This document shows, one piece after another, positions 4,781 to 27,946 of a stretch of DNA of 34,849 bases. The stretch lies in NCBI GenBank assembly GCA_029862185.1, contig JAOTXX010000043.1:1-34849 (forward strand), read 5' to 3'. A program made the position numbers and the translations under genes. The notes beneath the pieces are model-generated. The model was given only the letters and a program-made list of their open reading frames with translations, ran no database searches and was not told where the DNA came from. Origin of the DNA: Myxococcales bacterium (GTDB taxonomy: Bacteria; Myxococcota_A; Polyangia; Polyangiales; Houyiibacteriaceae). How positions within the stretch are numbered: position 1 is the first letter of the stretch; each line of letters begins with the position of its first letter.

Positions 4781-5200
4781 GTCACCGAACACTTCGAAAT
4801 GGTAGGGTCCGAAGAGCCCCTGACCTACCTCGTAGTGGTCGCTCGGCCCCTGAGCTACCGTAACGTCGACTGGACGCGGCTGGTCACTGCCTCGGTGACT
4901 ATCGATCCCGGGTTGGTCCACGGGGCAATGGATACGTTCAACGTCGACATGACCGGCGCTCCTACAGTCATCGGTCCGTTCTCGATGATCGAAGGCCAAC
5001 GGGCCTGGGTCGGGCTTTCCACGGAGGCCGATCTCGCGGCTATCAAAGATGTCCGCACGAAGCACAAGAGTGCAATCCACTACGAAATCACCGTCATGCA
5101 GATACGCCCCGAAGGACGGGACCTAGTCAGGAACCTCTCTGATTTGTTCAGTAGCAAGGCGCTGCTCGGCGGCACCAGTTACATCCTTCGGATCCCCTAG
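4781..5200 (+). CDS. Hypothetical protein, 5' truncated at the IS3 end
   Basis: The frame is open from the IS3 end at 4780 through an ATG at 4799 to a stop at 5200 (133 residues from the ATG). Codon use looks like real coding DNA, with segments such as EPLTYLVVVARPL and IGPFSMIEGQRAWVGLS. I do not recognise a family. No ribosome-binding site precedes 4799, and the open frame continues back to the IS edge, so this is probably the 3' part of a gene cut by the insertion. Its last 78 bases overlap, tail to tail, the end of the DUF2147-like gene on the other strand. Confidence 0.4.
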   Translation, partial: VTEHFEMVGSEEPLTYLVVVARPLSYRNVDWTRLVTASVTIDPGLVHGAMDTFNVDMTGAPTVIGPFSMIEGQRAWVGLSTEADLAAIKDVRTKHKSAIHYEITVMQIRPEGRDLVRNLSDLFSSKALLGGTSYILRIP

Positions 5201-5650
5201 GTGCGGCAGCTGGCGGTTGAACTGCACGGACTTGCGAATGAACAATACCCGGAGACTTATGACGAACCGGTTTGGATCAGGAAGCGTCATCTCTATCGAG
5301 AACTCGCGGTCGCGTGCCATCGAGTACACTCGGCCGTGCCAGCAGCGACGTTCGGGGTCGAACCGCAGCGACTTGAAGATCTCGGTTCCAATCGTCTCTG
5401 GGCGGCGCTCGCTCGCCACGATGACGCCGTGGTAGTGGTCCGCTCGCCTCCGGATCTCGACGACGGCCTCGCCTTCACCACGTTGCCAGTAGCCGACAAT
5501 CGCGTCCGGATGAGCCCCTGTCGCGCGCGCCAGTGGCGTGCAGGTTTGTAGCGTGATGGCCGTTGCGAACACAGCTGCAGCGATGGGCGAAATCTTGAGC
5601 GAGGGCCTTCCCCTTCTGCCGCGGCGCGCGGCGTGACTATTCAGCGGCAT
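5123..5650 (-). CDS. DUF2147-like exported protein
   Basis: The 175-residue protein has a basic N-terminus (ARRGRRGRP), a hydrophobic stretch near residues 22-37 that looks like a signal peptide, and then a compact domain. It starts AIVGYWQRGEGEAVVEI and continues with HGVIV, FDPERRCWHGRVYSM and FSIEMTLPD, the pattern of DUF2147 (Pfam) beta-barrel-like periplasmic proteins. Function is unknown. The start overlaps the end of the RND transporter gene by 14 bases, so the two are translationally coupled and should be co-transcribed from the sigma-54-type promoter upstream of the pump. The last ~30 residues, after FNRQ, overlap the opposing ORF and look less conserved. Confidence 0.65.
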   Translation of the reverse strand: MPLNSHAARRGRRGRPSLKISPIAAAVFATAITLQTCTPLARATGAHPDAIVGYWQRGEGEAVVEIRRRADHYHGVIVASERRPETIGTEIFKSLRFDPERRCWHGRVYSMARDREFSIEMTLPDPNRFVISLRVLFIRKSVQFNRQLPHLGDPKDVTGAAEQRLATEQIREVPD

Positions 5651-8600
5651 GACTCGACACGTTTCGGATGGGTGCTGGGATGATCGTCGGTCGCTCCCGC
5701 AGGTGAGTGGCGACGCTGCGGGTGGCGGCGATCAGGTCTTCGAGGATGAGGTAACAAGAGGGCACGATCAGCAGCATGATGAACGTCGCTGCAAGGATGC
5801 CGAAGCCTAATGAAACTGCCATGGGTACTAAGAAGCTCGCTTGCGCGGACTTCTCGAGGATGATCGGTGCGAGCCCGAAGAAGGTCGTCAACGAGGTCAG
5901 GACGATTGGGCGAAAGCGACGGGTACATCCTCGAATGACCGCGTCGATTGGGGCCATTCCTGCTTCGCGATTCTGATTGACGGCATCGATCAAGATGAGC
6001 GAATCGTTGCAAACGACTCCCGAAAGCGCGACGAGACCCATCAGACTCACCAGGCTAATCTCGACGCCCATCAAGGCGTGCCCCCACACTGCGCCGATCA
6101 TGCCAAACGGAATGGCTGACATGACTAGCAGGGGCTGCAGGTAGCTTCGGAAAGCGACGGCCAGAATCGAGAACATGACGATGTGTGCCATCACGAACCC
6201 GATAAACAGCGACCCCATCGCGTCCGCCTGACGCTCGAGCTCGCCACCTGGACGGTATTCGAGCCCAGGGACCGCCGCGAGGAGCTTTGCCAGCTCGTTC
6301 TCGAGGATGCTGCCGGTGATCGAACCTGCGTTCGCTCTTTCGTGGGCCAGTCCGGCCGTGACGGCAATGGTCCTCCGACCGTTCGAGCGGTGGATGACCG
6401 TGTGCGCCCGACCTCGCGTGACGTCGGCCGCACGTGCAACCGGCATCTCGCCCCCCGCGGGTGTGCGGACCATGAGCCGCTGCACATTGTAGAGGGATCG
6501 TCTCTCCTCGAGTGGCAGACGGACGTAGGTACGCACCTCGTCTCGCCCGCGCTGCTGTCGCACGGCCTCCGCGCCGAAGAAGGCGCCGCGCACCTGTCGG
6601 GCCAGGTCCAGCTCGGTCAGTCCCTGGGACCGCCCAAGGTCGGTTAGTCGAAAGTCGAGTTGCTCTTTGCCTCGGGCCACTCCGCTTTCGATGTCGCCAA
6701 GCCCCCGGTAGACGCTGATGTCTCGGGCGAGGCGAATTGCGGCCGTCTCGAGCGTGTCGACATCGTCGTGCATGAGGTCGATGTGAATGGGTCGCCCCGC
6801 CCGGATTCCTTCGCCATGCGAGAACACCATCGATTCCACGCCCGCGATCTCGCCGGCCACCGTTCGCCACCTTCGAACGAACTCGTCCGTCGCGATGTCG
6901 CGGTCATCGGCGTCGACCAAGTACACCATGACGGTGGCCAGGTGACTGCCCTCCTTGCCAGCTGGACCGTTCGAGTCGGGCCCGACCGAGACCCTGGCTC
7001 CGACTTGGGTGAACAGTCCGCGGGACACGCCCAACAGGTCCTTGCTGTTCGCCCGCTCGACTTCCATGATCAAGCGTGCCGAACTCGCCACACGGTTGGC
7101 GGCCCGTTCGGTGTCCCAAGCGGGGGTGCCCGGCGGCATCCGCAGCTGCACCGTGATCAGATCCCCTTCGAGGTTGGGGATGAATCGGAGCGGTACGCGA
7201 CCGATCGCGAAGCCGGCCGTCAGAATGAAGAGGGCGACTCCAGCTGAAACCGTGAAGTACCTCCAGTCGAGCACCTTTGCGAGCAGGGGCGCATAGACAC
7301 GCTGGACATGTCGCTCCAGCCGACGCGGCATGTCGAGCTTCGCAAGGAGCTGCATCAAACAGAGGTACGGGGCGAGGACTACTCGCAAGAGCCAGGGCAT
7401 CGGGTGCGAAAGGTGGGCGGGCAACACGAACAGTGACTCCGCCAGTGACATCAGGAGAACGGAAATGACCACGAGGGGCACGACTCGAAAGAACTTCCCC
7501 GCAACGCCGGGGACGAAAAGCATTGGCATGAAGGCGACGCAGGTCGTGAGCACGGAGAAGACGACCGGCTTGGCGACTTCTCTAGCCCCATCAATCGCCG
7601 CCTGGAGCCGAGGCTTTCCATCGGCCCGGTGTTTGTAAATCGCCTCGCCGACGACAATCGCGTCATCGACCACCATGCCGAGCGCCAAGATGAAGCCGAA
7701 GAGCGACAACATGTTGATCGATACGTCGGCGATCGGAAAAAGCAGGAGCGACCCCGCAAATGACACCGGGATACCGAGCGTGACCCAGAACGCCAGACGC
7801 GCCTGAAGGAAGAGCCCGAGTATCAGCAGGACGAGCAACAGGCCTATCAATGCGTTGTCGAGCAGGAGCTCGATGCGTCCCTCGTACATCTCGGAGCGAT
7901 CCACCCAGGTCGCGACGCCGAGGCCTTTTGGCAAGCGTCGTTTCAGCTCGCTCACGTGCTCTTTGACCGCTGCGGCGATCTCGAGCGGAGTCTGGTCGCC
8001 GACTCTGAATACGTTGATCATTGCGGCCGGCTTGCCGTTGAACGTGGCGTTTTGATGGTTGTCGCGGAAGCCGTCTTTCACCTGAGCGATGTCCCGCACG
8101 CGTACCCGTGAGCCGTCGGGACGACTGAGAACCACGATGTCGGCGAACTCTGGACCTTGGTCGCGTCTCTCGGCGGTTCGGAGGAGTAGCTCGCCGGACT
8201 CTGTTTGTAGCGCGCCGCCCGGAAGCTCGACCGAGGCCTCACGAATTCGTCGTGCGATTCCCGTCAGGGTCAAGCCGTGTTTGCGCAGACTGGCTTGAGG
8301 AACCTCGACGCTGATCTCGAGGGGGCGAACGCCGGAGAGCTCCACGCTCGTGATCCGCTCGTCACGGAGTAGTGCATCTCGTGTGCGATTCGCGGCGGAA
8401 CGAAGGGTCGTCTCGGCGACATCGCCGTAGAGCACGAGCGAGATCACCTGCCGCCGGGTGGAGACCAGTCGGACGTTTGGGCGTTCGGCGTCGGCAGGGA
8501 ACGACGAGATCCGGCCCACGACGCTCTTGACGTCGCTGAACGCCTGCCGCGTGTCGCTACCGAGGAGAAGCTGAAGGATGACCGTCGCCGAACCCTCGGC

Positions 8601-8873
8601 TGCGACCGAGCGCACGTCCTTGACACCATCGACGCCCTGGACGGCTTCCTCCACGACCAGCACGATTGCCTGCTCGACTTCCGCGGGGCTGGCGCCTGGA
8701 TAGGGCACGGTCACGACAATCTGCTCGAGCTCGACCTCTGGGAACACTTCCTGCTTGATCCCAGTGCCGAGCGTGACGACGCCACCGACGACCAAGATCA
8801 GCATGAGCACGTTCGACGCGATTCGGTTCTTTGCCATCCAGGCCAGCGGCCCGTTTTCCTCGTTGCCCGTCAT
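5637..8873 (-). CDS. RND-family efflux permease (AcrB/HAE-1 type)
   Basis: 1078-residue inner-membrane proton-driven pump subunit. It has an N-terminal helix (NVLMLILVVGGVVTLG), PYPGASPAEVE near residue 57, a first membrane bundle near 335-560 and a second near the C-terminus. The proton-relay aspartates are present in GMVVDDAIVV (Asp403/Asp404). The second-bundle motif reads GVVCNDSLILID, so the AcrB lysine (K940) is not conserved, as in other permeases of the NDSL subgroup. I chose the ATG at 8873 because GAGGAG lies 6-7 bases upstream and the alignment starts there. The open frame extends to 9167 but the extra part is not pump-like. No membrane-fusion protein or TolC-type partner is adjacent. 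The promoter at 8903-8918 and operator at 8972-9006 suggest sigma-54 control. Confidence 0.92.
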   Translation of the reverse strand: MTGNEENGPLAWMAKNRIASNVLMLILVVGGVVTLGTGIKQEVFPEVELEQIVVTVPYPGASPAEVEQAIVLVVEEAVQGVDGVKDVRSVAAEGSATVILQLLLGSDTRQAFSDVKSVVGRISSFPADAERPNVRLVSTRRQVISLVLYGDVAETTLRSAANRTRDALLRDERITSVELSGVRPLEISVEVPQASLRKHGLTLTGIARRIREASVELPGGALQTESGELLLRTAERRDQGPEFADIVVLSRPDGSRVRVRDIAQVKDGFRDNHQNATFNGKPAAMINVFRVGDQTPLEIAAAVKEHVSELKRRLPKGLGVATWVDRSEMYEGRIELLLDNALIGLLLVLLILGLFLQARLAFWVTLGIPVSFAGSLLLFPIADVSINMLSLFGFILALGMVVDDAIVVGEAIYKHRADGKPRLQAAIDGAREVAKPVVFSVLTTCVAFMPMLFVPGVAGKFFRVVPLVVISVLLMSLAESLFVLPAHLSHPMPWLLRVVLAPYLCLMQLLAKLDMPRRLERHVQRVYAPLLAKVLDWRYFTVSAGVALFILTAGFAIGRVPLRFIPNLEGDLITVQLRMPPGTPAWDTERAANRVASSARLIMEVERANSKDLLGVSRGLFTQVGARVSVGPDSNGPAGKEGSHLATVMVYLVDADDRDIATDEFVRRWRTVAGEIAGVESMVFSHGEGIRAGRPIHIDLMHDDVDTLETAAIRLARDISVYRGLGDIESGVARGKEQLDFRLTDLGRSQGLTELDLARQVRGAFFGAEAVRQQRGRDEVRTYVRLPLEERRSLYNVQRLMVRTPAGGEMPVARAADVTRGRAHTVIHRSNGRRTIAVTAGLAHERANAGSITGSILENELAKLLAAVPGLEYRPGGELERQADAMGSLFIGFVMAHIVMFSILAVAFRSYLQPLLVMSAIPFGMIGAVWGHALMGVEISLVSLMGLVALSGVVCNDSLILIDAVNQNREAGMAPIDAVIRGCTRRFRPIVLTSLTTFFGLAPIILEKSAQASFLVPMAVSLGFGILAATFIMLLIVPSCYLILEDLIAATRSVATHLRERPTIIPAPIRNVSSHAAE

Positions 8874-8902: not shown

Positions 8903-8918
8903 AGCAGAGTCCGTGCCA
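8903..8918 (-). promoter_or_regulatory. Sigma-54-type promoter for the RND pump
   Basis: The minus strand reads TGGCACGGACTCTGCT, which differs from the consensus TGGCAC-N5-TTGCW at one position and has the required GG-N10-GC spacing. The predicted transcription start is near 8892, about 19 bases before the RND start codon and about 97 bases from the centre of the operator pair at 8972-9006. Confidence 0.75.
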
Positions 8919-8971
8919 ATGAGGAAGCCGTGGAGTTCCGCGGGTTCGGTCTGTCGCGCGTATGAATTCGG

Positions 8972-9006
8972 CGACGAGCGTCGTCATTCTTCGACGGGAG
9001 TCGTCC
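8972..9006. promoter_or_regulatory. Paired palindromic operator (enhancer site 1)
   Basis: Two 15-bp palindromes, CGACG-AGCGT-CGTCA (8972-8986) and CGACG-GGAGT-CGTCC (8992-9006), have a 5-bp spacer and centres 20 bp apart. The same arrangement occurs at 11179-11213 and 17835-17869. The spacing puts two dimers on one helix face, as expected for an enhancer-binding protein of the NtrC type. It lies in the 293-bp divergent region between the RND and PEGA genes. On the RND side a sigma-54 promoter lies at the expected distance. On the other side I found no convincing one. Confidence 0.75.
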
Positions 9007-9094
9007 CGGCGGTCGAGCAGCGACCCATGCGGTGCGCCGGGCTCTACAACCGGGCTGACTGCGAAGTCACTCTGACGCAAATCCGTTCGCGAGA

Positions 9095-9115
9095 TGCACG
9101 GTTCGCGTCCGTGCA
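9095..9115. repeat. Perfect inverted repeat upstream of the PEGA gene
   Basis: TGCACGG, a 7-base spacer and CCGTGCA form a perfect 7-bp inverted repeat about 52 bp before the likely start at 9167. It could be an operator or a leader hairpin. It does not match the GACG-N5-CGTC operators. The role is unknown. Confidence 0.4.
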
Positions 9116-9166
9116 AATAGAACTGGCCGCTTGCCATCGATTCCCAAAGCGCAGATAGTCGGCGCA

Positions 9167-10879
9167 ATGCGATTGGTGGCGACCGTAGCGGCCCTGTGGC
9201 TGTGCGCCTTGCCGAGTGCGCAGGCGCAGTCCGAGGACTGGCTGATCCTGCCGACGACGGTAGAAGATGAGGCGCCCTGGATGCAGGCGACTGCGACGAA
9301 ACTCAATCGTGGGCTTCGAAGGCAGGGGGTCGGGGTCTGGTCGGCGGACCGAGCTGCATCTGCTTTCCGGGCGCGGGGCTCGGCTTCGCCCCCGCTTGTC
9401 TCCGACAGCAGAGTGGAAGTCTGGGCAGCACGCTCGCAGCAAGCCCTCCGCGAGCTCGCTCTCGGCAATTACGCGACTGCACTCGGGGGGCTCGAGGCAG
9501 CACAGGAGTTCGCTCGGACCAACTTGGTGACCTTGAATCGCGATCCGACCCGCGCGCAGACTGTGCTCGATACGTGTCTCTACCTGCTGCGCGCGCTGGT
9601 CGAAGCCGGTGATCAGGAGGTGGCGGCTCGCCAGGCCCAAGAGTGCGTGCGAATGGTCCCCTCCGGAACGCCGACTCGCCAGATGCATCCACCCGCCGTC
9701 GTCGAGCTCTACGACGAGGCTCAAACACACGGTCCTGCGCGCGCGAGCACCTTGCTCGTCGAAAGCGAACCGTCGAAGTGCCCGCTTCGAGTCAACGGGG
9801 TTCTGGCTGGAAAGACGCCGTTCCAACTGACGGACCTCTATCCCGGTCGATACGCTGTACAGGTCGAGTGCGAGCCCAATACGCCGAGTCCAGTGCACGC
9901 GGTGGAGGTGCCGCGAGGGTCCACGAGTCTCTTCGTCTTCAGTCGATTCGACCGTTCCGTGAAGACAACCCCGCTGTTGCACCTTCGCTACGAAGACCCT
10001 CCGGAACCCTTGCGGCTCGCGCGAGACGCTCGCGAGGTCGCCCGGGCGCTCCCGGCCTCGGCAGTCGTCGTCGCGTCGGCGACCACCCTCGATGTATTGG
10101 AGCTGCGGGTCGTCACCGGAATGCAGGCCGAGTCAGCCGTGGTGCGCATCGCCATGTCCGCGACGGGGCCTAGCGACGATGCCGTGATGGAGGCCATTGT
10201 GGCGCTGCTTGCGGGCGAATGCTGGGACTTCACCGATGACGATCCTGTCCAGCTCGACTGCCGTACGGGGCAGCCGATCGTTGCCGGTGCCCGAAGGGCC
10301 GACGAGAAACCAGCGCGCGCGCGCCCACCTCGTGGCCAGTTCATCGCGGGCCTGACGCTCGCTTCGGCTGGCACTGCTTCCCTTCTGTCGGGCTACGGCG
10401 TGCTCATTGCGAGACGCGCGGCGGGCGACGATTGGCTCGCCGACCCCGGGAGTCTCGATGCGCACAACAAATGGTTGAATCTGGGGGTGGGCCTAGTCAT
10501 CACGGGCAGTGCGGGCTCGGCCATGCTCGTGACCGCAATGCCACTGGTGCTCCCGTACAAGGAGAAGACCCCCTGGTGGGGATGGCTGAGCGGCGGGCTG
10601 GGGCTTGGGCTTGCCGCGGCTTCGATTGCCACCGCAGTCACGGCGGACCCCAGGCCTACTCAGTCATGCGTCGTCAACAATCTGAACCCCGAGCCGTGCA
10701 CCCAGCGTGCGAAACGGACCGATCTCGCCATCATGCTGGGGGTCACGGCGGCCCCACTGCTCACCCTCCCTTTGGTCTACTTGTTCAGGAAGGGCGAAAA
10801 GAAGGTCTCAGCTGAGCTCTCGCCGAGCATCTCTGTCAACCGCTCTGGCGCAGCGATGGGCGTGCGGGGCGTGTTCTGA
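9167..10879 (+). CDS. PEGA-domain envelope protein with C-terminal membrane helices
   Basis: I chose the ATG at 9167 because it starts a clear signal peptide (MRLVATVAALWLCALPSAQAQ). The in-frame ATG at 9131 would put 12 extra residues before it. The export region is followed by an alpha-helical, TPR-like part (ALRELALGNYATALGGLEAA) and then a PEGA domain (STLLVESEPSKCPLRVNGVLAGKTPFQL...YPGRYAVQVEC). A middle domain of unknown type comes next, then three or four hydrophobic segments in the last 170 residues (FIAGLTLASAGTASLLSG, GVGLVITGSAGSAMLV, WLSGGLGLGLAAASIATAV, MLGVTAAPLLTLPLVYLF). Myxobacteria have many such proteins of unknown function. Divergent from the RND pump and sharing its control region. 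Confidence 0.8.
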   Translation: MRLVATVAALWLCALPSAQAQSEDWLILPTTVEDEAPWMQATATKLNRGLRRQGVGVWSADRAASAFRARGSASPPLVSDSRVEVWAARSQQALRELALGNYATALGGLEAAQEFARTNLVTLNRDPTRAQTVLDTCLYLLRALVEAGDQEVAARQAQECVRMVPSGTPTRQMHPPAVVELYDEAQTHGPARASTLLVESEPSKCPLRVNGVLAGKTPFQLTDLYPGRYAVQVECEPNTPSPVHAVEVPRGSTSLFVFSRFDRSVKTTPLLHLRYEDPPEPLRLARDAREVARALPASAVVVASATTLDVLELRVVTGMQAESAVVRIAMSATGPSDDAVMEAIVALLAGECWDFTDDDPVQLDCRTGQPIVAGARRADEKPARARPPRGQFIAGLTLASAGTASLLSGYGVLIARRAAGDDWLADPGSLDAHNKWLNLGVGLVITGSAGSAMLVTAMPLVLPYKEKTPWWGWLSGGLGLGLAAASIATAVTADPRPTQSCVVNNLNPEPCTQRAKRTDLAIMLGVTAAPLLTLPLVYLFRKGEKKVSAELSPSISVNRSGAAMGVRGVF

Positions 10880-11055
10880 TCGATCTCGACGGCTATCGGT
10901 GCCGAAGGACCCCACTGGACTTGCGTCAGCAGGAATGGAATCGAGACCAGAATAAGGGCGGCCACTGGGTGCTTGCGGATTGACGTTCCGATGAACTCTG
11001 CACGCTGTTGCTTTGCCTGTTCGATGATTCGGTGGATGTTTGCCTGGTCGGTCAT
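10777..11055 (-). CDS. Small single-span membrane protein
   Basis: 92 residues: a polar N-terminus (MTDQANIHRIIEQAKQQRAE), a conserved-looking SIRKHPVA and one hydrophobic segment (VAALILVSIPFLLTQVQW, about residues 31-48). A GAGGAG ribosome-binding site stands 7 bases before the ATG. The last 34 codons lie antisense to the end of the PEGA-protein gene (103-bp tail-to-tail overlap), so the C-terminal third is unusually constrained. I do not know a function. It is preceded by a sigma-54-type promoter at 11112-11127 and the operator at 11179-11213, which supports it being a real, regulated gene. Confidence 0.65.
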   Translation of the reverse strand: MTDQANIHRIIEQAKQQRAEFIGTSIRKHPVAALILVSIPFLLTQVQWGPSAPIAVEIDQNTPRTPIAAPERLTEMLGESSAETFFSPFLNK

Positions 11056-11111
11056 GGTGCGGCTCCTCGTGGATGGTTCCGTTGAAATCTGGCGAACGTG
11101 GCCGCAAGAGC

Positions 11112-11127
11112 AGCACGTACTGTCCCA
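11112..11127 (-). promoter_or_regulatory. Sigma-54-type promoter for the small membrane protein
   Basis: The minus strand reads TGGGACAGTACGTGCT, with GG-N10-GC spacing and two departures from TGGCAC-N5-TTGCW. The predicted start is near 11101, 46 bases before the gene and about 95 bases from the centre of the operator pair. Confidence 0.6.
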
Positions 11128-11178
11128 AGCCGAATAGGCCGTGATCTCCTTGCACCGGTCCGCCTAAATCCGAGAGAT

Positions 11179-11213
11179 CGACGATGAACGTCATCTTCTG
11201 ACGGCGCTCGTCA
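11179..11213. promoter_or_regulatory. Paired palindromic operator (enhancer site 2)
   Basis: CGACG-ATGAA-CGTCA (11179-11193) and TGACG-GCGCT-CGTCA (11199-11213) are separated by 5 bp, with centres 20 bp apart. The layout equals that of sites 1 and 3. The site sits midway between two outward-facing sigma-54-type promoters, about 95 and 99 bp from their predicted starts. Confidence 0.78.
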
Positions 11214-11268
11214 GTATTTCGAGGCGATGGGGGATCGGCGAGGCCGGTGAATTCGCGAGTTTCGTCGT

Positions 11269-11284
11269 TGGTACGAACTCTGCA
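11269..11284 (+). promoter_or_regulatory. Sigma-54-type promoter for the 11350 lipoprotein gene
   Basis: TGGTACGAACTCTGCA has GG-N10-GC spacing and two departures from the consensus. The predicted start is near 11295, 55 bases before the ATG and 99 bases from the operator centre. Confidence 0.65.
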
Positions 11285-11349
11285 TTGCTTCCCCTGCATC
11301 GGCTGCCGTCCTCCACAAACCCGGCCAGTCCGCTGAAAAGGAGCCCGCC

Positions 11350-11961
11350 ATGAAGAAAAACGCACACGCAATACTACGAGCCTGTTCGTCCCTTGTTTTC
11401 GTATGTGCACTCGGCCTCTCGGGCGGTTGCCTCTACATGGGCGACCCCGGCCACGTCGAAGCGGACCCAAGCGCGATCGTGGGCATGGAAGGTGCGCGAC
11501 TCGAGCTCATTCGTCACTCGACGGGCTGCGGCTCCGGCGAATCGGAGGGGCTCATCGCGGAGGTTGGACCGTGGGTCGAGTACAGCGCCGACGCGGTGAG
11601 CGCGCTCAAGGCCAATTGCGAACGTGCACCGCACCCCGGCGTCGAGGTGCACGTTGACGGCAACGCTGTCGTTTTCGACTTCTCGAACGTCGCAGCGCCG
11701 GGACGCTTTCCCGCCAACGAGTTTGAAGGCTACATCCTCGACATGGTTCGCACCGCCGACGCTCCGGTTCTGATTGCAGCGCTGGTCGATTTGAAACTGA
11801 CTACGCTGGATCTCGTTCAAGACGACCTGACGTACGACCGGGACCGACTGGCCGTGAACCTGGCGGGTCTACGCTTCGATTCGAACAGCTTCATCCGATT
11901 GGAGCTGTATTTGGACGAGGTCTCCGAACCGACAGACGAGGACTCATCCGAGTCCATGTGA
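11350..11961 (+). CDS. Hypothetical lipoprotein
   Basis: 203 residues with a lipoprotein signal peptide (MKKNAHAILRACSSLVFVCA, then LGLSGGC with the lipidated Cys27). A strong AAAAGGAG ribosome-binding site precedes the ATG by 6 bases. The mature part contains a few cysteines (STGCGSGE, KANCERAP) and acidic segments, and ends in an acidic tail (EPTDEDSSES). No family was recognised. It sits divergently from the small membrane protein, and both appear to be driven from the same operator by sigma-54-type promoters, so it should be envelope-located and co-induced with the pump and the P450 operon. Confidence 0.8.
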   Translation: MKKNAHAILRACSSLVFVCALGLSGGCLYMGDPGHVEADPSAIVGMEGARLELIRHSTGCGSGESEGLIAEVGPWVEYSADAVSALKANCERAPHPGVEVHVDGNAVVFDFSNVAAPGRFPANEFEGYILDMVRTADAPVLIAALVDLKLTTLDLVQDDLTYDRDRLAVNLAGLRFDSNSFIRLELYLDEVSEPTDEDSSESM

Positions 11962-12071
11962 GATACGACAGATGCCGACTTGCCTGTTCGCTACCCAAGC
12001 GATGAATTTCGCCGTAGAATGCTGCGCATGGTCCGCCCGAATGGTGGAGCGCGGGCCGCGATTGCGAAATC

Positions 12072-13667
12072 ATGGCGACGGCTGGCGCGGACAGACCTCT
12101 CATTCGCCCCATCGGGCGAGACTTCGGTCCCTACAAGATCGTCCGACGTCTTGGCGTGGGCGGGATGGCCGAGACCTTCGAGGCCGTCCGCACCGGGCCC
12201 AGCGGGTTCTCCCAGCGTGTCTGTCTCAAGGTCGTGCTGCCGTTCTTCCGGGACCGGCAGGATTTCCGGGACCTCTTCGAACGCGAAGCGCGCCTCGCCG
12301 CCAAGCTTCGTCACAGCAACGTCGTGGGCGTCATCGATTTCGGCCAGATTGACGGCGTCACGTACATGGCCCTCGAGCTCGTCGACGGAGTCGATCTTGC
12401 TTCGCTCTTGGACGCGCAGCCGAACGGGCGGCTTTCGCACGAGTACGTCGCACTTGTCGGGCACGAGCTTGCAGCCGCGCTCCAGCACGCCCACGATCCC
12501 CGCCGAGAGGGCTCGTCCGGTGGCCCAGAAAACAACGCGATCATTCATCGCGACCTCTCCCCATCGAATGTGCTCGTGAGCCAGCGCGGCGAAATCCTTC
12601 TGACCGATTTCGGCGTGGCCAAAGCCATCACAGGAACGGCACGACAGCAGAGCGCGGTCAAAGGGAAGGTCCCTTACATGTCGCCCGAGCAGCTTCGCGC
12701 CGACAAGCTGGATGGCCGCGCTGATCTGTTTGCGCTCGGCGTCTTGCTCTTCGAGGCGCTTTCCGGTCAGCGTCCGTTTCAGGGCGAGCACGATCCGGCG
12801 ATCATCATGCAAATCCTCGACGGTCGGCATGCCTCGCTCCACGGTCTCGTTCCCGGCGCGCCGCAGGGGCTCTGCGATGCAATCGAGTCGCTTCTGAAAA
12901 CCGACCGCGGCGAACGGCCCCAGGACGCCGGGGCTGTGCTCGAGCTCCTCGATCCCTTCGTGCCCTCTCCGCGCATGCGCCGAGAGCTTGGGAACATGGC
13001 CGCGGAGCTCCACGCGCTTCAGCTTTCCCGTTCTTCGGAGCCCCCGATAAGCGGCACTGAGGCGACTGATTTCCCGCCGAGCCATCCGGGCGAGGGAAGC
13101 GGGGTCAGTTGGACCAGCGGCTCGTTCGCCTCCGATGCGGAGACAGCACTGGGGCGGCCGGCGCCGGACGTCGCTGGTCGGCCGCGATCTCGCAAGGGGA
13201 TCTTATGGGCGCTCCTGGCGCTTGTCGCGGCCCTCGCAGCCATCACGCTCTGGCCTAAACTGCCTGGCGATCCGCAGCATGAGGCCGCCACAAGTCCAGT
13301 CGAGACGGCCGCTGCGGTTCCAAAGGAAACAAGCGAACTGGCCGAAGAAGGTCGGCCGACAACACCATCACCTACGGACCGAGAACGCAACGACGTCGCC
13401 GTTGACGCCGCCTCCGAGACGGCGTCGGCAGAGCAGCCGCCACCCGCAATCCCTTCGGTCCGGCCCGCATCATTGAGCGTCGTGGTATTTCCTTGGGGCG
13501 ACGTCTGGATCAACGGCAGGCGTCGCGGAACGGCCCCGCTCAAGAACATCTCGCTCAAGCCAGGCCGCTACAAGATCAGCGCTGGCCGAGGAAAGCCTTC
13601 GAAGACAAAAGCCGTCCGTCTGCGTGAAGCTCAGCGCAAGACCGTTGAGTTCGACCTGACGAAATGA
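12072..13667 (+). CDS. Transmembrane Ser/Thr protein kinase with PEGA-like extracytoplasmic domain
   Basis: 531 residues in the order kinase, linker, one membrane helix, Pro/Thr-rich spacer, PEGA-like domain. Visible kinase elements are the glycine loop LGVGGMA (27-33), catalytic lysine in VCLKVV (Lys53), HRDLSPSN (159-166), DFG (179-181) and SPEQL (204-208). The membrane helix is ILWALLALVAALAAITLW (377-394). The PEGA-like region (VVVFPWGDVWINGRRRGTAP) is at the C-terminus and would face the periplasm. The gene ends 2 bp before the end of the EBP gene on the opposite strand. This proximity makes the EBP a possible phosphorylation target, which is an inference only. No strong ribosome-binding site was found. 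Confidence 0.9.
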   Translation: MATAGADRPLIRPIGRDFGPYKIVRRLGVGGMAETFEAVRTGPSGFSQRVCLKVVLPFFRDRQDFRDLFEREARLAAKLRHSNVVGVIDFGQIDGVTYMALELVDGVDLASLLDAQPNGRLSHEYVALVGHELAAALQHAHDPRREGSSGGPENNAIIHRDLSPSNVLVSQRGEILLTDFGVAKAITGTARQQSAVKGKVPYMSPEQLRADKLDGRADLFALGVLLFEALSGQRPFQGEHDPAIIMQILDGRHASLHGLVPGAPQGLCDAIESLLKTDRGERPQDAGAVLELLDPFVPSPRMRRELGNMAAELHALQLSRSSEPPISGTEATDFPPSHPGEGSGVSWTSGSFASDAETALGRPAPDVAGRPRSRKGILWALLALVAALAAITLWPKLPGDPQHEAATSPVETAAAVPKETSELAEEGRPTTPSPTDRERNDVAVDAASETASAEQPPPAIPSVRPASLSVVVFPWGDVWINGRRRGTAPLKNISLKPGRYKISAGRGKPSKTKAVRLREAQRKTVEFDLTK

Positions 13668-13669
13668 TT

Positions 13670-15253
13670 TTAGCCGGACCCTCCCCGAGTCTTGAAGCGC
13701 TCGGGGTCGATGGCGAGAGTCGCCATCCGGCTGATGAGCCCGGTGCGCGGGACGGAGAGCATGCGGGCGGTTCGCGCCACGATGCCGTGGCATGCCGTGA
13801 GTGCGTCTTCGATGATCGCTTTTTCGAGGGCGTCGACATCTGCCTTCTGGTCACCGAGCTGCTGCCAGCGTTCCTGGATTCCACCTTGGGTGCGTGGGTC
13901 GGGAGACATCGACGCGGCGCGCGACGATTTCGCGTCGACCGATCCTGCGCCGCCAAGGCCCAGGTGCTGCGCCTCGATGACCGAGTCTTCCGGACCGTTT
14001 GCGCGGGCGCGGTTTCTGGCGCGCTCTAACACGGCCTCGAGCTCGCGGATGTTGCCGTCCCAGGCGAGATGTGGCGCGGTGAGCAGCTCCACGGCACTGC
14101 CGTCGAGCTCCCAGTCGGTTTGTCCGTCGGTCCGCCGCAAGTAGCGGACCGCAATGGCGGGAATCTCGTAGCGCCGCTCGCGCAGCGGCGGTAACACGAT
14201 TGGCACGGTCGCGAGGCGATAGTAGAGGTCCTGCCGGAAGCGCCCCTCCGCAACCGCCTTGTCCATGTCACCGTTGGTCACCGAGATGAGCCGAAGATTC
14301 GCCGTCTTTGGCTCACGACCTTGGTAGCCGAGAGGCCGGTACGTGCCGAACTGGGTGAAGTCGAGCAAGAGCTGCTGCGCATTCGGGGGCAGGTTCAACA
14401 CCTCGTCGAGGATCAGGGTTCCGCCGTCGGCGTATTCCACGAGCCCGTTGCGTTTGGACACGGCGCCAGAGAACGAGCCCCGCTCGTGCCCGAAGAGCTC
14501 CGAGGTAATGGTGTTGAGATCGTCCGCCATGCCGAGCGTGGCGCGAACGATGGGCTCTTGGTTGCTCGCGCGCGCAAACGCGGTGGCGAGTTGAGTCTTC
14601 CCCGTGCCCGACTCGCCCAAGATCATGATCGACGCCTGGCCGGCAGCCGCTCCCCGAAGCTCCTCCCGGATGCCGCTCATGCTATCGGAGCTCAATAAGT
14701 CGTCGAGGCTGAGGTAGTGCTCGTTTCGATCTTTGGCACGCTCGACACGAAGGTCTTCCTTTGTCGCCTCCATGAGCGACTGCTGTGCGATGACCCCGCC
14801 AAGGAGCGACCCTACGCACTCGATGAACTCCAGGACGTCTTTTCTCGTCCCTTGGTCGCCCGGAAACTCGAGATACATGGCACCCACCAAGCTGCGGCCG
14901 CGCCCGGAGGCGCTGGGATGCGACCAGAGCGGGAGGGCGGTGAACGAACCCTCGGATGCGTACGGAACCGGGCCTGCGATCGTCTTGAGCTCGGTTTGAG
15001 CCAAGCTTAGCAACTCGGTCACGTGCTGGGCGAGCACGGCCGGCGGTACTCCGCTGAAGCTTGCCGTGCGAGAGCGGTGCATCGGGCCCCCGCCCTTGGT
15101 CTCGAGGGTGCTCCAGGCCGAGGACGCGCCAACCTGCACACAGAGCGCTTCGAGGGTCTCCTCGATGAAGCGACCCACGTGAAGCCCCGCGACGACCGCG
15201 GATACGATTTCGCGCATGCGCGGCCAAGGATTCGTGATCTCGGTGCGGCCCAT
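13670..15253 (-). CDS. Sigma-54-dependent enhancer-binding protein (GAF-AAA+-Fis)
   Basis: 527 residues that activate sigma-54 RNA polymerase by ATP hydrolysis. The N-terminal ~160 residues resemble a GAF sensor (ALPLWSHPS, SLVGAMYLEFPG). The AAA+ domain has Walker A GESGTGKT (213-220), the sigma-54-contact loop as GSFSGA (259-264) in place of the usual GAFTGA, Walker B GTLILDEV and the arginine region FRQDLYYRL (339-347). The C-terminus has a Fis-type helix-turn-helix (ALTACHGIVARTARMLSVPR). It is the third gene of the P450-LuxR-EBP operon, 14 bases after the LuxR gene. Paired palindromes upstream of this operon and of two neighbouring divergent promoter pairs make it a likely autoregulator and master activator of the block. 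The T-to-S change in the loop is conservative. Confidence 0.93.
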   Translation of the reverse strand: MGRTEITNPWPRMREIVSAVVAGLHVGRFIEETLEALCVQVGASSAWSTLETKGGGPMHRSRTASFSGVPPAVLAQHVTELLSLAQTELKTIAGPVPYASEGSFTALPLWSHPSASGRGRSLVGAMYLEFPGDQGTRKDVLEFIECVGSLLGGVIAQQSLMEATKEDLRVERAKDRNEHYLSLDDLLSSDSMSGIREELRGAAAGQASIMILGESGTGKTQLATAFARASNQEPIVRATLGMADDLNTITSELFGHERGSFSGAVSKRNGLVEYADGGTLILDEVLNLPPNAQQLLLDFTQFGTYRPLGYQGREPKTANLRLISVTNGDMDKAVAEGRFRQDLYYRLATVPIVLPPLRERRYEIPAIAVRYLRRTDGQTDWELDGSAVELLTAPHLAWDGNIRELEAVLERARNRARANGPEDSVIEAQHLGLGGAGSVDAKSSRAASMSPDPRTQGGIQERWQQLGDQKADVDALEKAIIEDALTACHGIVARTARMLSVPRTGLISRMATLAIDPERFKTRGGSG

Positions 15254-15267
15254 CTCGCGGGCCTAGC

Positions 15268-16311
15268 CTACAGCGTTGAGGCGCTTTCGACCAGCAGCGT
15301 TCTCATCTTGATCACGAGTTGCCCCGTGGTCTGAACGCCGAGCTTTCGCATCGCCTGACGAAGTAGCTCCGAGACCCGCGATCGGCTGACGCCGAGACGG
15401 TAGGCGACCAGCTTGCTGCTCTCCCCGGCGCCCACGTGGGTGGCCACCTGAAGCTCGCGTTCGGTGAGGCCACGCGGGTCGCGAAGGTGGGGTGCGTTGG
15501 GCAAGGCCAGGATGAAGCGCCGGCCGTCGGTATCAAACCAGTCGACGATCGAACATCGGCCCCTGAGCACACCTTCCCAAAGCCGCAGCGCTTCGCACGT
15601 CTCGCCGCTTCGGAGTTGGGCTCGGGCCAGATCTACGCCAATTGCGACCCTTCGAATCTCATCGAGCGCGCGATCGCTCTTCGCCTCGCCTGCCGCCTCG
15701 GCGACCGAGCAGTGCTTCGGGTCGAGCAGCGCCACCGCGTCGAGCGGGATCTGGGTCACCGGCGTGCCTCTCGGAGTCTGACCCAACCTTCGCCGCAAGC
15801 GATGACCCGTCGCGATGTGAACCGAGAGCATGTGCCAGCGCTCGCGTGCTTTTCGGCTTGGCTCAATCTCCGTTGCGCAGGGGATGTGAATCCCTACCCC
15901 GTGCTGGTCCGGTTCCATGGCCCACAGTGAGAGGATGTCCTTACAGCCAAGATGCTTGGTCAGCGCATCGTGCGCTTCTGGGTGGCGACCCCTGGCTTGA
16001 GCCAAGGTTTGGACGCGAGGCTCGCCTGGCACTGGGGCGGCTCTTGCAAAGTCGGGGTCGAGCTCTTGTGCGGCGCGCGCGAACCGCATCGCGAGGTCCG
16101 GCGGCCCGCTCTCCGCGTGGAGCTGAGAAACGAGCGGCTCGCCATCGCTGGAGGTTCCGGCCCAGAGGGTCGCGGCGCAGCCCTGCCCAAGGTCTAAGAT
16201 GCCTGCGCCTGCCCGCAGCAGGTTCGGCAGCCATTCCGCGGGACCGAGCTCGAGATTGTAGGCTGCTTCTACCAGAGCGATAGAGCTGATCGAGGCTCGT
16301 TTCATCGTCAC
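15268..16311 (-). CDS. LuxR-type helix-turn-helix regulator
   Basis: 347 residues (345 from the ATG at 16305). The last ~60 residues form a LuxR/GerE DNA-binding domain (LTERELQVATHVGAGESSKL, then LGVSRSRVSELLRQAMRKLG). The long N-terminal part is of the kind found in myxobacterial stand-alone HTH proteins (ALVEAAYNLELGPAEWLPNL, a possible sensor) and has no recognisable receiver or autoinducer domain. The GTG start at 16311 overlaps the stop of the P450 gene, so translation is probably coupled. It may modulate the same operon or a separate set of genes. The ligand is unknown. Confidence 0.85.
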   Translation of the reverse strand: MTMKRASISSIALVEAAYNLELGPAEWLPNLLRAGAGILDLGQGCAATLWAGTSSDGEPLVSQLHAESGPPDLAMRFARAAQELDPDFARAAPVPGEPRVQTLAQARGRHPEAHDALTKHLGCKDILSLWAMEPDQHGVGIHIPCATEIEPSRKARERWHMLSVHIATGHRLRRRLGQTPRGTPVTQIPLDAVALLDPKHCSVAEAAGEAKSDRALDEIRRVAIGVDLARAQLRSGETCEALRLWEGVLRGRCSIVDWFDTDGRRFILALPNAPHLRDPRGLTERELQVATHVGAGESSKLVAYRLGVSRSRVSELLRQAMRKLGVQTTGQLVIKMRTLLVESASTL

Positions 16312-17708
16312 ACCGCCTCGACGATCAGCTCGACCTTACCGGAGACCGAGCCGAGCGGTTTGAACTCGTGCCGCGCTGGATACGGTCGGGCGAGCTTGAA
16401 ACGCGCCTTGCCGAGCAGGGTGTGCCAGAAGGCTTTGGCTTCGAGGGCCGACAGCTGCGCACCCACGCACGCGTGTGCACCTGCGCCAAAGGGCATGTAC
16501 GCGCCGTGGCTCTTCTTGCCTTCGCTACGTTCGGCACCGAAGCGCTCCGGGTCAAAACGGTCTGGCTCGGTCCAACACGACGGGTCGCGCAGCGCTGCAC
16601 TGAGCACGACGCCGACGACGGTGCCCGCGGGAATGTGATAGCCGCCGAGGGTGACGTCGCGCAAGGCTTGCCGCGGGATGGATGGCGCCACGGGGTAGTA
16701 GCGAAGCGTCTCTTTCCACACCAGGTCGTGGAGCTCGAGCTTCTTGATCTCGTCGTAGCGGATCGGCTCGGTGGTCACATGGCGGGCTTCGGTTCGAAGC
16801 CGCGCCTGCCATTCCGGGTGCGCTGCCAGGAGGTACGCCATGCTCGTGACGCCGGCCGACGTCGTATCGAACGCGGCGCTCATGACCGCCAAGAACATGC
16901 GCACGAGCGCGTCGTCATCGAGCCAATCGACACTGTTGTTCGTTCGGCACAGGCGGCTGAACAGGTCGGGAGAGTCGCTGGCCCGACGCTCGTCTACCTG
17001 CCCACGAAAGTGTTCGAACAGGTGTCGATACGCGCGACGCGCACGGCGCCAGGTTGGGCTGAGCCACTCCCTCTTCGACAGCGCCAGACCCCCAGCCCAG
17101 TAGTCCGACATCGCCCTGTCGAGCCGAGCTCCCTCCACCGGGTCATCGACACCCATGAAGACCTTGGCCGAGACTCGGGCGAAGAGATCGCGGACGTGTG
17201 CTTTGAAGGCTACTTCGCCCTGCTCGAGCCACTGCGCGACGGCCGACTCGAAGAGTGGGACCGCGGCATTGACATAGCTCTCGAGCGCTTCCGCCTTGAA
17301 CGCCGGTTGGAGGAGCTTTCGCACGTCTCGGTGGGGCCCGAAATCGAGCGTGACGGGCGAGTCCATCGGCCCGTCGGTGATTCCGCCGAACTGAACCAAC
17401 CATCCAAGCGCAGTCGACCACGCCTTGTCACCGTTGCGGAGCACTTCGCCCGCGAGCTTCGGGTCCGAGACGAAGACGAACCTGTCGGTGCCAACCTGCC
17501 CACGGTAGATCGGCCCGTGTTCTTTGGCCTGCGTCTGAAGGTGCGCGTGGCCACGCTTCATCCAACCCCGAAGGCTCGCGAGCCCGGTGAGTAACCCGTC
17601 GTTTCCCGGAATGTGCCGAGTGTCGGTCGGTATCTCGTAGGCGCGTTCGGGCCGGCCCACGTCGCCCACCACATGTAGAATCGCTGGGTCCACCGCAGTA
17701 CTGCTCAT
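16308..17708 (-). CDS. Cytochrome P450
   Basis: 466-residue heme monooxygenase. Diagnostic motifs are the I-helix AAFDTTSAG (278-286) with the acid/Thr pair, KETLR (332-336, ExxR), FDPERF (385-390) and the heme loop FGAGAHACVG (407-416) with ligand Cys414. I chose the ATG at 17708, preceded by GGAGGTG at good distance. The in-frame extension to 17873 would translate across the promoter. The N-terminus is not a membrane anchor, so the enzyme should be soluble and need external ferredoxin or reductase, neither of which is encoded nearby. It is the first gene of an operon with the LuxR regulator and the EBP and has its own sigma-54-type promoter. The substrate is unknown. Confidence 0.93.
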   Translation of the reverse strand: MSSTAVDPAILHVVGDVGRPERAYEIPTDTRHIPGNDGLLTGLASLRGWMKRGHAHLQTQAKEHGPIYRGQVGTDRFVFVSDPKLAGEVLRNGDKAWSTALGWLVQFGGITDGPMDSPVTLDFGPHRDVRKLLQPAFKAEALESYVNAAVPLFESAVAQWLEQGEVAFKAHVRDLFARVSAKVFMGVDDPVEGARLDRAMSDYWAGGLALSKREWLSPTWRRARRAYRHLFEHFRGQVDERRASDSPDLFSRLCRTNNSVDWLDDDALVRMFLAVMSAAFDTTSAGVTSMAYLLAAHPEWQARLRTEARHVTTEPIRYDEIKKLELHDLVWKETLRYYPVAPSIPRQALRDVTLGGYHIPAGTVVGVVLSAALRDPSCWTEPDRFDPERFGAERSEGKKSHGAYMPFGAGAHACVGAQLSALEAKAFWHTLLGKARFKLARPYPARHEFKPLGSVSGKVELIVEAV

Positions 17709-17763
17709 CGCCACACCTCCGTCGTTCACGCCTGCCCGTCTCGCGGACTTGGTTGCCGAGCGG

Positions 17764-17779
17764 TGCACGCTGTGTGCCA
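17764..17779 (-). promoter_or_regulatory. Sigma-54-type promoter for the P450-LuxR-EBP operon
   Basis: The minus strand reads TGGCACACAGCGTGCA, one mismatch to TGGCAC-N5-TTGCW, with GG-N10-GC spacing. The predicted start is near 17753, 45 bases before the P450 start codon and 99 bases from the operator centre. Confidence 0.72.
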
Positions 17780-17834
17780 CCGGGAAAAGCGATGAGATTT
17801 CGCGTCGCAGGCTGGGGGGCCGGGTACTCAAAGA

Positions 17835-17869
17835 TGACGGCCGTCGTCGTTCAGCGACGACGCTCGTCA
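17835..17869. promoter_or_regulatory. Paired palindromic operator (enhancer site 3)
   Basis: TGACG-GCCGT-CGTCG (17835-17849) and CGACG-ACGCT-CGTCA (17855-17869) have a 5-bp spacer and centres 20 bp apart. The whole site is also one large imperfect inverted repeat (17834-17870, 16-bp arms, two mismatches). It is equidistant (about 98-99 bp) from the predicted starts of the two outward-facing sigma-54-type promoters. Confidence 0.82.
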
Positions 17870-17923
17870 TCAATTCAGGTGGAGCGATCGACTAGCTACC
17901 CCGGAACTCGTGCGTTTTCGCGT

Positions 17924-17939
17924 TGGCACGTCCGCTGCA
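17924..17939 (+). promoter_or_regulatory. Sigma-54-type promoter for the 17998 lipoprotein gene
   Basis: TGGCACGTCCGCTGCA has one mismatch to the consensus and GG-N10-GC spacing. The predicted start is near 17950, 48 bases before the ATG at 17998. This promoter position argues against a start codon at 17923. Confidence 0.72.
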
Positions 17940-17997: not shown

Positions 17998-18738
17998 ATG
18001 GTGTTTCAAGGCTTCAGCAGAGTTCGTACCGCAGCGACGGCGCAGATGCTTCTAACGCTCGGCGCTGGATGTGGCTCCGAGCTCCCGGAGTACTCTGGGC
18101 CTCTGTGTGAGAAGGCCGCAAGCGGTGATTGGTCGCCCGCTGGGATGCGCGCCGAGCTCGATCACGTCGACTACGCAAAGTGGATTGACGATCCCGAGCT
18201 CGAAGCTCAACTGCTCACCTACGGGATGGATGACCAGTGGGAGCATCTGTCTGGAAACGACGTCAACGAGGATGGGATCGTGGTCAGCCCATACGGAAAG
18301 ACCTTGAACGCGTACCAGCTGATCGTCACGACGCCCGACCTAGAGGGATGGGGAGACTACATTCGTCAGCATACCTATCCCGTGCACGGCTCCTGTGGGC
18401 AAATGAAGCCTGGCGTGGTGGCGCACACGTACTCTGGGAGGAGCGGACACCGGACCGATGTCTTCGAGTTGTTCTATGACCGAAACGTCGTCTCCCGGGC
18501 GGGCTTCCTGATTCACGAAGTTGGTCATGCCGCCGGCCTACCGTGCCACGTCGGAGAGCAAGATCGAAGTTGGGACGAAGGCGGTGCGTATCGGCTGCAG
18601 CTCGAGTTTCTCGCCGCCGTCTACTACGCCGAGGGGTTGTCGGAGGCGCATCGAGAGGCGGCCAGAACCGAGTTTACCCGGATCATGCGGAACAAGTTTG
18701 TCGAGGCCAGCGAGCTGACCTTGCAGGATTTCGAGTGA
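17998..18738 (+). CDS. Lipoprotein with a zinc-metallopeptidase motif
   Basis: 246 residues from the ATG at 17998. The N-terminus gives a lipoprotein signal (GFSRVRTAATAQMLLTLGAG then Cys25, Ser-Glu following). The mature part contains FLIHEVGHAAGLPCH, an HExxH zinc-binding motif followed by a glycine and a nearby Cys/His. Downstream is WDEGGAYRLQLEF, whose acidic residue could be a third ligand. The preceding part includes HGSCGQMKPGVVAHTY. The protein may be an outer-membrane-anchored metalloprotease, but the overall family was not recognised and catalysis is unproven. It is divergent from the P450 operon and shares its operator with a matching sigma-54-type promoter. Confidence 0.75.
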   Translation: MVFQGFSRVRTAATAQMLLTLGAGCGSELPEYSGPLCEKAASGDWSPAGMRAELDHVDYAKWIDDPELEAQLLTYGMDDQWEHLSGNDVNEDGIVVSPYGKTLNAYQLIVTTPDLEGWGDYIRQHTYPVHGSCGQMKPGVVAHTYSGRSGHRTDVFELFYDRNVVSRAGFLIHEVGHAAGLPCHVGEQDRSWDEGGAYRLQLEFLAAVYYAEGLSEAHREAARTEFTRIMRNKFVEASELTLQDFE

Positions 18739-18932
18739 CCTCAGCGCAGCGCGCCAAACCCTAACGGCCGGGAGCAACGACGTCGGGTCGTTTGGGCACA
18801 ACGGGGGCGCTTATCGGTCTTGATCATCGGCCGTTGCGTAACATTTCAACTTTCTGCTCAACCTGGGTCAGATCTTTTTTCAGATCTTTGTGCATCTGGG
18901 CTGGCGCATCCATAGAATGTCAGGGGAGTAGG

Positions 18933-20696
18933 ATGAGGGCGTCGTGGAGAGAACTGTCGGGAGCCACCGGCATTGAGCCGATTCCAATGGATTCTCGGGC
19001 TCCCAAAGAGATGGGCCTGACGCAGGTCGGCCGGTATCGACTCTGCTTTGAGCTCGCGTCTGGCGGCATGGCGACCGTGTATCTCGCACGGATGGAGGGG
19101 CCCCACGGCTTCGAAAAGCTCGTCGCTCTCAAGCGTGTCCATCCACATCTGGTCAGCGAGCGTCGCTACGTTGAGATGTTTATGGATGAGGCGCGGATCG
19201 CCTCCGGGATCACCCACCCCAATGTTTGTAGTGTGTTCGACTTCGGTGAGTCCGACGGCGAGTACTACCTGGCGATGGAGTATCTCGTTGGAGAACCCTT
19301 GGCCCGGCTATACCGGCGCGCCGCCGCCAACCCCGAGCAGCGCGAGTCTACGTTGCTCGCGGTGAAAATGGCCCGGATCATCGAAGAAGCGTGCGAGGGC
19401 TTGCACGCGGCACACGAGTCGAGAGAGGCCAACGGACAACTGCTCAACGTCGTGCATCGCGATGTATCCCCGAGAAACCTCTTCATGACGTACAGCGGTG
19501 TCGTCAAGGTCGTCGACTTTGGAATTGCGAGCGCACGGCAGCGTGTGCATCGCACAGCGACCGGGAACCTCAAAGGCACGATGCCCTACATGGCGCCCGA
19601 ACAGGTCACGGGCGGGGAAGTGGATCGGCGGCTCGACATTTGGGGTCTGGGGGTCGTGCTCTGGGAGTTGCTGACGCTCGAGCGGCTGTTCCGTCGTGAA
19701 ACCGAAGTCGAGACCATGTACGCCGTGCTGGTGGGCGATATTCCAGCGCCGTCGGACCGGAGACAGGGCATTCCGCCTGAGCTCGATGCAATCGTCATGA
19801 AAGCGCTCCAACGCGACCCGGAGAAGCGCTGGCAGACCGCGAGAGAGATGGGCCAGGCCTTGAGCGCGTTCGCGTCGGAACAGTCGGCGCGCGTCGGCGC
19901 AGCGGATCTGTCCAACTGGATGGAAGAGCTCTTTCCCGACGGTGAAGTCGAAAAGCGTGAGCTGATGGAGCTTGCTCTGAGCCGGGGGGTTCAAGCGCCG
20001 CCATCCCCACAGGACTTGGACGGGGAGCTCACTGGAGCCCGGACCGTCACCGCAGAGGTCCGGCCGGAGACCGCGTCCAAATCGAGGCTGATCTGGAAGC
20101 GGGTCGGCCTAGCGATTGGGCTTGGAGTGCTACTCGCTTCGATCGCTGCCGTTTGGAGTTTTCAGCAGCATGCACTCGAAGAGCCGCCATCGGCTGAGTC
20201 CCCTCCATCGATGATCGAGCCTGCAGTCGCGCCAAGCGAGGTTGAGCCGGCGGAACCTCCTTCGGAGCTTACCGCCGGGCAGGAGATGGCAGTGAACCCA
20301 GGCTCGGACGAGCCGGCGTCCAAGACACCTGAGCCGGGGTCGATCGACGCCAAGCCCGAGCCGCCCAAAGCCGACCAGCCCGGAGCCGAAGAGCCCAAGT
20401 CCCAGAAGCGAAGAACCGCGGCGAAAAATGTACGCCTACGAGAGAGGCCAATCACGCAGGCCCAGCCGCAACCGGCTGCCGCGGGGCTACCAGGGCAGGT
20501 CAAGATCATCACCAAAGGCCACTCGATCGAGATCTACGAGGGCAGCAAGCTGCTCGGCAAGGCGCCCGCGCTGCTCACGCTACCCGCAGGTCGGCACAAA
20601 TTGAGGCTGAAGTCTACGGAAAGCGGGGAGTCGATGACGCTGCCGGTCAACATCGTCGCCAACGCGACGAAGACCATTTCGCTCGACGTGGATTGA
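18933..20696 (+). CDS. Transmembrane Ser/Thr protein kinase with PEGA-like tail
   Basis: 587 residues from the ATG at 18933, which has an AGGGGAG ribosome-binding site. The longer open frame to 18792 lacks support. The kinase domain starts at GRYRLCFELASGGMATVYLA and has catalytic lysine in VALKRV, VVHRDVSPRNL, VVDFGIAS and MAPEQV. After a linker there is one membrane helix (VGLAIGLGVLLASIAAVW), a long Pro/Glu-rich spacer with repeated PPS/EPP, and a C-terminal PEGA-like beta domain (EIYEGSKLLGKAPALLTLPA). It is the same architecture as the kinase at 12072 but the sequence is clearly different. It converges on the OmpA gene. Substrate unknown. Confidence 0.9.
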   Translation: MRASWRELSGATGIEPIPMDSRAPKEMGLTQVGRYRLCFELASGGMATVYLARMEGPHGFEKLVALKRVHPHLVSERRYVEMFMDEARIASGITHPNVCSVFDFGESDGEYYLAMEYLVGEPLARLYRRAAANPEQRESTLLAVKMARIIEEACEGLHAAHESREANGQLLNVVHRDVSPRNLFMTYSGVVKVVDFGIASARQRVHRTATGNLKGTMPYMAPEQVTGGEVDRRLDIWGLGVVLWELLTLERLFRRETEVETMYAVLVGDIPAPSDRRQGIPPELDAIVMKALQRDPEKRWQTAREMGQALSAFASEQSARVGAADLSNWMEELFPDGEVEKRELMELALSRGVQAPPSPQDLDGELTGARTVTAEVRPETASKSRLIWKRVGLAIGLGVLLASIAAVWSFQQHALEEPPSAESPPSMIEPAVAPSEVEPAEPPSELTAGQEMAVNPGSDEPASKTPEPGSIDAKPEPPKADQPGAEEPKSQKRRTAAKNVRLRERPITQAQPQPAAAGLPGQVKIITKGHSIEIYEGSKLLGKAPALLTLPAGRHKLRLKSTESGESMTLPVNIVANATKTISLDVD

Positions 20697-27856: not shown

Positions 27857-27890
27857 GAGCACAATTGCGCGGTGCTAGATGTTATGTCGC
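27833..27890 (+). repeat. IS91-like right end, copy 2
   Basis: The hairpin AGCCC-ATC-GGGCT and the tail ending GATGTTATGTCGC overlap and follow the transposase stop. This copy shows which gene the ends at 558-622 and 2552-2625 belong to. Its position after the transposase gene fits the origin end (oriIS) of the IS91 family, which is an inference. Confidence 0.72.
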
Positions 27891-27946
27891 GTGACTCACA
27901 GCGCTGACAGGGCCTTTGAATTCGCTATGCTCCAGCGTCGGGCCTT

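Follow-up and report, generated by a model that had tools for sequence, protein, structure and literature searches.

Local EBP regulons, comprising one to six operons and multiple UAS sites, are the rule in the Clostridiales (PMC6615313). The locus described here resembles them in having its EBP gene beside the predicted targets, multiple UAS, sigma-54 promoters and a regulator with a Fis-type HTH. It differs from them in its operator, GACG-N5-CGTC, two evenly spaced copies of which would serve divergent promoters, in targets that are envelope and signaling genes rather than genes of metabolism, and in an operator that lies somewhat closer than the usual 100-250 bp (PMC6615313). Single-component EBPs of Desulfovibrio vulgaris are likewise co-localized with their targets and use palindromic sites, with GAFSGA and GSFTGA among their loops; the operator GACG-N5-CGTC was not met among the D. 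vulgaris motifs in the consulted parts of that study (PMC4641369). Nla28 and other EBPs of Myxococcus xanthus share with the present locus its predicted autoregulation and tandem sites upstream of sigma-54 promoters (PMC9765219). However, the regulon of Nla28, a two-component EBP, is large and dispersed, and its tandem half-sites take the form CT[CG]CG[CG]AG, whereas here the regulon appears local and the sites are palindromes (PMC9765219). More generally, sigma-54 has been broadly tied to envelope functions (PMC3162934).

The window, by which we mean the whole stretch of 34,849 nucleotides analyzed, very probably carries a local, positively autoregulated bEBP/sigma-54 regulon in which the bEBP encoded at 13670-15253 binds the operators. 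The operators, their spacing, the promoters and the conservation of the arrangement are established at the level of sequence. The original prediction knew of no described system of this composition; as far as we found, the composition is indeed new, but the kind of system is not (PMC6615313), in that the design is well known while the regulon and some of its target families are new. Our literature search found nothing joining SG8-38 with Myxococcota. The locus offers a precise operator for an uncharacterized myxobacterial EBP family, would tie the undescribed families LP203 and AKQQRA SMP to one regulator, and may be used in annotating sigma-54 control in uncultured Myxococcota.

Paired operators and the predicted sigma-54 promoters

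Three intergenic regions each contain two GACG-N5-CGTC palindromes, with all eight core bases conserved in all six palindromes and with centers exactly 20 bp apart in every pair, as had been claimed. The pairs (no strand assigned) are GACGAGCGTCGTC and GACGGGAGTCGTC at 8973..9005, GACGATGAACGTC and GACGGCGCTCGTC at 11180..11212, which has a near-identical counterpart in the related genome G016, and GACGGCCGTCGTC and GACGACGCTCGTC at 17836..17868. The places are those originally given, but each position had been one base off, the true starts being 8973, 11180 and 17836. By pattern search, the method behind all genome-wide counts given here, the strict pair occurs three times in the 4,285,816-base genome, always at this locus, and its reversed control has no match in the same 4.29 Mb. 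Under a first-order Markov model of the window, approximately 348 single palindromes but only 0.03 pairs are expected per genome; the three pairs seen, together with the empty control, rule out a chance origin. A genome-wide regulon can likewise be rejected at this motif stringency, because the relaxed search of the window's own genome finds no other locus: both the strict and the relaxed combination of palindrome and sigma-54 element match here only.

All five predicted GG-N10-GC sites are present around these operators, four of them being the top-scoring four of 588 in the window and the fifth being weak; correspondingly, four are near-consensus to the TGGCAC-N5-TTGC-type -24/-12 element. 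The best in the window is the predicted promoter of a metalloprotease-like gene (TTGGCACGTCCGCTGCA, 17924..17939, plus strand, start at ~17950), which diverges from that of the P450-LuxR-EBP operon (GTGGCACACAGCGTGCA, 17764..17779, minus strand, start at ~17753). The predicted promoter of an RND gene (TTGGCACGGACTCTGCT, 8903..8918, minus strand, start at ~8892) ranks third of the 588 and has palindromes 68.5 and 88.5 bp upstream, and that of the LP203 gene (TTGGTACGAACTCTGCA, 11269..11284, plus strand, start at ~11295) is kept in G016. These top four sites lie 78.5-80.5 bp from the operator centers, each directed outward to a gene. The fifth, a weak predicted promoter of a small membrane protein gene (TTGGGACAGTACGTGCT, 11112..11127, minus strand, start at ~11101), lies at 76.5 bp with a lower score, and the aligned G016 site is canonical (TTGGCACAGCACGTGCT). 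The predicted starts fall 95-99 bp from the operator centers, in agreement with the original prediction, and the predicted leaders run 19-55 nt to the start codons, most with a recognizable ribosome-binding site; the RND gene has an GAGGAGAT site, with its ATG 19 nt past the predicted start. RpoN is encoded elsewhere in the same genome (contig C74). A promoter directed from the first operator toward the neighboring PEGA protein gene (9167) was considered and rejected, the sole candidate, at ~9100-9114, having an N11 spacer and being too distant.

Genes behind the operators

To the left of the first operator lies an RND-family permease gene (AcrB/AcrD/AcrF; 5637..8873, minus strand; PF00873, E 5e-162), whose operon probably includes the gene for a small, weakly DUF2147-like protein (5123..5650, minus strand; PF09917, E 3e-5, under the curated cut-off). 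The second operator separates the small membrane protein with its AKQQRA motif (SMP; 10777..11055, minus strand), homologues of which stand behind operator-sigma-54 promoters at several other loci, from LP203 (11350..11961, plus strand), a predicted lipoprotein with an invariant cysteine at the lipobox position in the alignment and found in 13 of the 19 genus genomes. The SMP matches NCBIfam RSP_7527, but below the threshold (E 4.5e-4). LP203 has no Pfam or NCBIfam match, and a fold search with its model returned no Foldseek hit with E <0.1 and a best Z of 5.4 over 102 residues at 4.2 A; since its fold matches stayed at noise level, we give it no function. The serine/threonine protein kinase gene downstream (12072..13667, plus strand; PF00069) is likely transcribed by read-through from LP203.

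The third operator faces an operon on the minus strand that begins here with a cytochrome P450 (16308..17708; PF00067), continues with a LuxR-type HTH protein (15268..16311; PF00196, the GerE HTH), of which there are several paralogues per genome, and ends with the bEBP (13670..15253). On its other side lies a gene for a predicted lipoprotein with a HEVGH zinc-protease-like motif (17998..18738, plus strand), which has no Pfam match and no significant sequence match in the PDB, and which has a homologue in G008 beside a palindrome and sigma-54 site. A second serine/threonine kinase gene (18792..20696, plus strand; PF00069) is possibly read through from it. The list of targets in the original prediction had omitted the two Ser/Thr kinases downstream of two of its members.

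Recurrence of the arrangement within the genus

By its named matches, the window belongs to a genus of uncultured Myxococcota, one member of which is Myxococcales bacterium SG8_38; the members come mainly from sediments, as we read the isolate names. EBP orthologues (63-87% identity, up to five per genome) were found in 11 of 19 genus genomes. Over these 19 genomes, the pattern GACG-N5-CGTC, 49-79 bases, TGGCA-N7-TGC gave 48 matches against two for its reversed control, though a few of these reflect palindromes that overlap, near-identical contigs (G015 and G017) or likely chance matches, G003:C125 among them. Operator-promoter sites are more numerous in genomes with the EBP (n = 11) than in those lacking it (n = 8; Mann-Whitney p 0.003, uncorrected for relatedness and with several genomes incomplete). 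The layout of operator and sigma-54 element recurs beside orthologues of the EBP and its targets across the genus, and the two computational checks suggested with the original prediction, this one and the scan of the genome for further pairs, were thus both positive. Between SMP and LP203 in G016, for instance, 45 of 48 operator and sigma-54 bases are identical to those of the window, vs. 169 of 246 in the remainder of that intergenic region. Outside the genus, an order-wide motif scan remained near background, with few plausible matches in the same family, among them G023 and G029.

On the EBP tree, operators occur in several subclades and are absent at L049, L050, L051 (the window genome's own paralogue) and the single row L052. 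One to three operator-promoter sites were also found in each of G003, G008 and G010, where no close EBP was detected; the last two assemblies are fragmented, and the sites of G003 are atypical. At L061:6178-6289 (G003) and L184:4260 (G008), both in genomes that lack a close EBP orthologue, a palindrome and sigma-54 element are set about one helical turn further apart (77.5 bp), and the G003 site adjoins an LP203 homologue. Among 36 aligned genus promoters, palindromes fall either 64.5-71.5 or 86.5-90.5 bp upstream of the center of the sigma-54 element, and four sites lie outside these two bands. Most of these promoters also have an AA block ~18-19 bp and a TT block ~7-8 bp upstream of the T in the -24 TGG, perhaps reflecting an upstream polymerase contact or bending.

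The genes that recur behind operators at the genus loci are LuxR-EBP, LP203, SMP and the RND pump, and from sequence we regard the LP203 lipoprotein, the SMP, the RND pump and the EBP operon as the probable conserved targets. A like operator-promoter layout precedes RND orthologues in L045 and L048 and LuxR-EBP in L045, L046, L048, L053, L056 and L057. LP203 is followed by a downstream kinase in several loci, and PEGA lies downstream of SMP in the same direction in other genomes. The EBP operons of other loci contain no P450 orthologue, and the metalloprotease-like gene stands behind an operator in one further case, in G008; both look like accessory members rather than parts of the conserved core. 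The family of the LuxR-type protein is expanded, with one to 11 copies in 18 of the 19 genomes, and a copy lies near an LP203 homologue in G002, G007, G011 and G012, the first three of which have no close EBP.

Probable binder of the operators and a candidate mechanism

The regulator has an AAA+ sigma-54 domain (PF00158, E 2.4e-42) that is present in 16 of 16 family members, Walker-type sequences GESGTGKT and GGTLILDE, and a C-terminal Fis-type HTH (PF02954, E 3.7e-8). No Pfam family matches its sensor-like first 160 residues, and no GAF match was listed for the 16 members; in a low-confidence model (pLDDT 69), helices and strands succeed one another there as in a GAF domain, and the fold matches listed look AAA+-dominated, as judged by description and length. 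The sigma-54 contact loop reads GSFSGA rather than GAFTGA, and the intact relatives in the alignment have G[AS]FSGA. Sigma-70 promoters are acted on by some EBP homologues whose loops are disrupted (PMC3162934), and the altered loop throughout the aligned family could mean that this EBP binds but represses, or works in a sigma-70 mode. We consider this extremely unlikely, given near-consensus sigma-54 promoters at a fixed operator spacing and the listing of GAFSGA and GSFTGA as loop variants compatible with activation; GSFSGA itself was not found among the variants given in the consulted parts of that source (PMC4641369).

The original assignment of the operators to this EBP gains strength from co-occurrence, from the conservation of the recognition helix and from loci without the LuxR gene; binding is still something that we infer from sequence. 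The recognition helix is almost invariant across the orthologues aligned, most changes falling at its far end, and this, with the larger number of sites in genomes that have the EBP, favors the EBP as the binder. The LuxR-type protein might instead bind the palindromes and recruit or block polymerase while the EBP acts elsewhere, a suggestion that draws on its GerE HTH, on its place in the same operon and on the recurrence of LuxR-EBP in many loci. However, perfect operators are kept beside EBP genes at the G016 and G018 loci, where the 20 kb read contain no LuxR gene, and this too favors the EBP. Moreover, LuxR homologues occur in EBP-less, operator-free genomes (G002, G013, G014), and the N-terminal half of the protein is missing in several operon copies, so that we rate a LuxR-type binder as very unlikely.

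The binder could also be a paralogous EBP, encoded on contig C85 of the same genome, acting as the main binder or together with the local EBP and placing the regulon under control in trans. This paralogue is 68% identical to the local EBP, has nearly the same recognition helix and has no operator nearby. On the other hand, the essentially complete G016 has a single EBP of the family, the local one, and retains the operators, and operators track local EBP loci; we therefore hold control by the paralogue to be unlikely. That it could also bind nevertheless counts against the reading of a regulon run by the local EBP, as do the sites in G003, G008 and G010, the GSFSGA loop and the one weak promoter. 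The local EBP is, on our reading, the presumptive binder of the UAS and the putative activator of the targets.

In the mechanism that we propose, dimers of the local bEBP would bind both adjacent palindromes through the Fis-type HTH. The two sites are about two helical turns apart, and dimers bound there would lie on one face of the DNA, which may aid assembly of the AAA+ ring. The ring would contact sigma-54 polymerase ~80 bp away on either side; with such a reach, one pair of operators could activate divergent sigma-54 promoters on both sides, each at nearly the same distance. The output would comprise the RND pump operon, the SMP, LP203 with its kinase, the metalloprotease-like lipoprotein and, by autoregulation, the P450-LuxR-EBP operon. 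Input to the EBP probably comes through the N-terminal sensor-like domain, the adjacent Ser/Thr kinase or both. Since nearly every locus of sufficient length has a kinase homologue beside the EBP or in its vicinity, kinase input is a plausible guess; an envelope-related role and the identity of the signal are likewise guesses. An undescribed envelope signaling or stress module of SG8_38-like myxobacteria, in which LP203, the AKQQRA SMP, PEGA and a Ser/Thr kinase would make up a sensory relay acting on a GSFSGA-type EBP without a histidine kinase, is a tentative and rather doubtful extension of this scheme.

Elsewhere in the window, a 300-nt direct repeat (92% identity) spans positions 3-302 and 27031-27330, with shorter related copies at 553-618 and 27828-27893 and inverted ones near 2512-2619, these dispersed repeats flanking the region. 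The gene at 22648-25680 encodes a large protein containing leucine-rich and DUF4215 repeats, and 72-nt direct repeats lie within it at 23939-24357.
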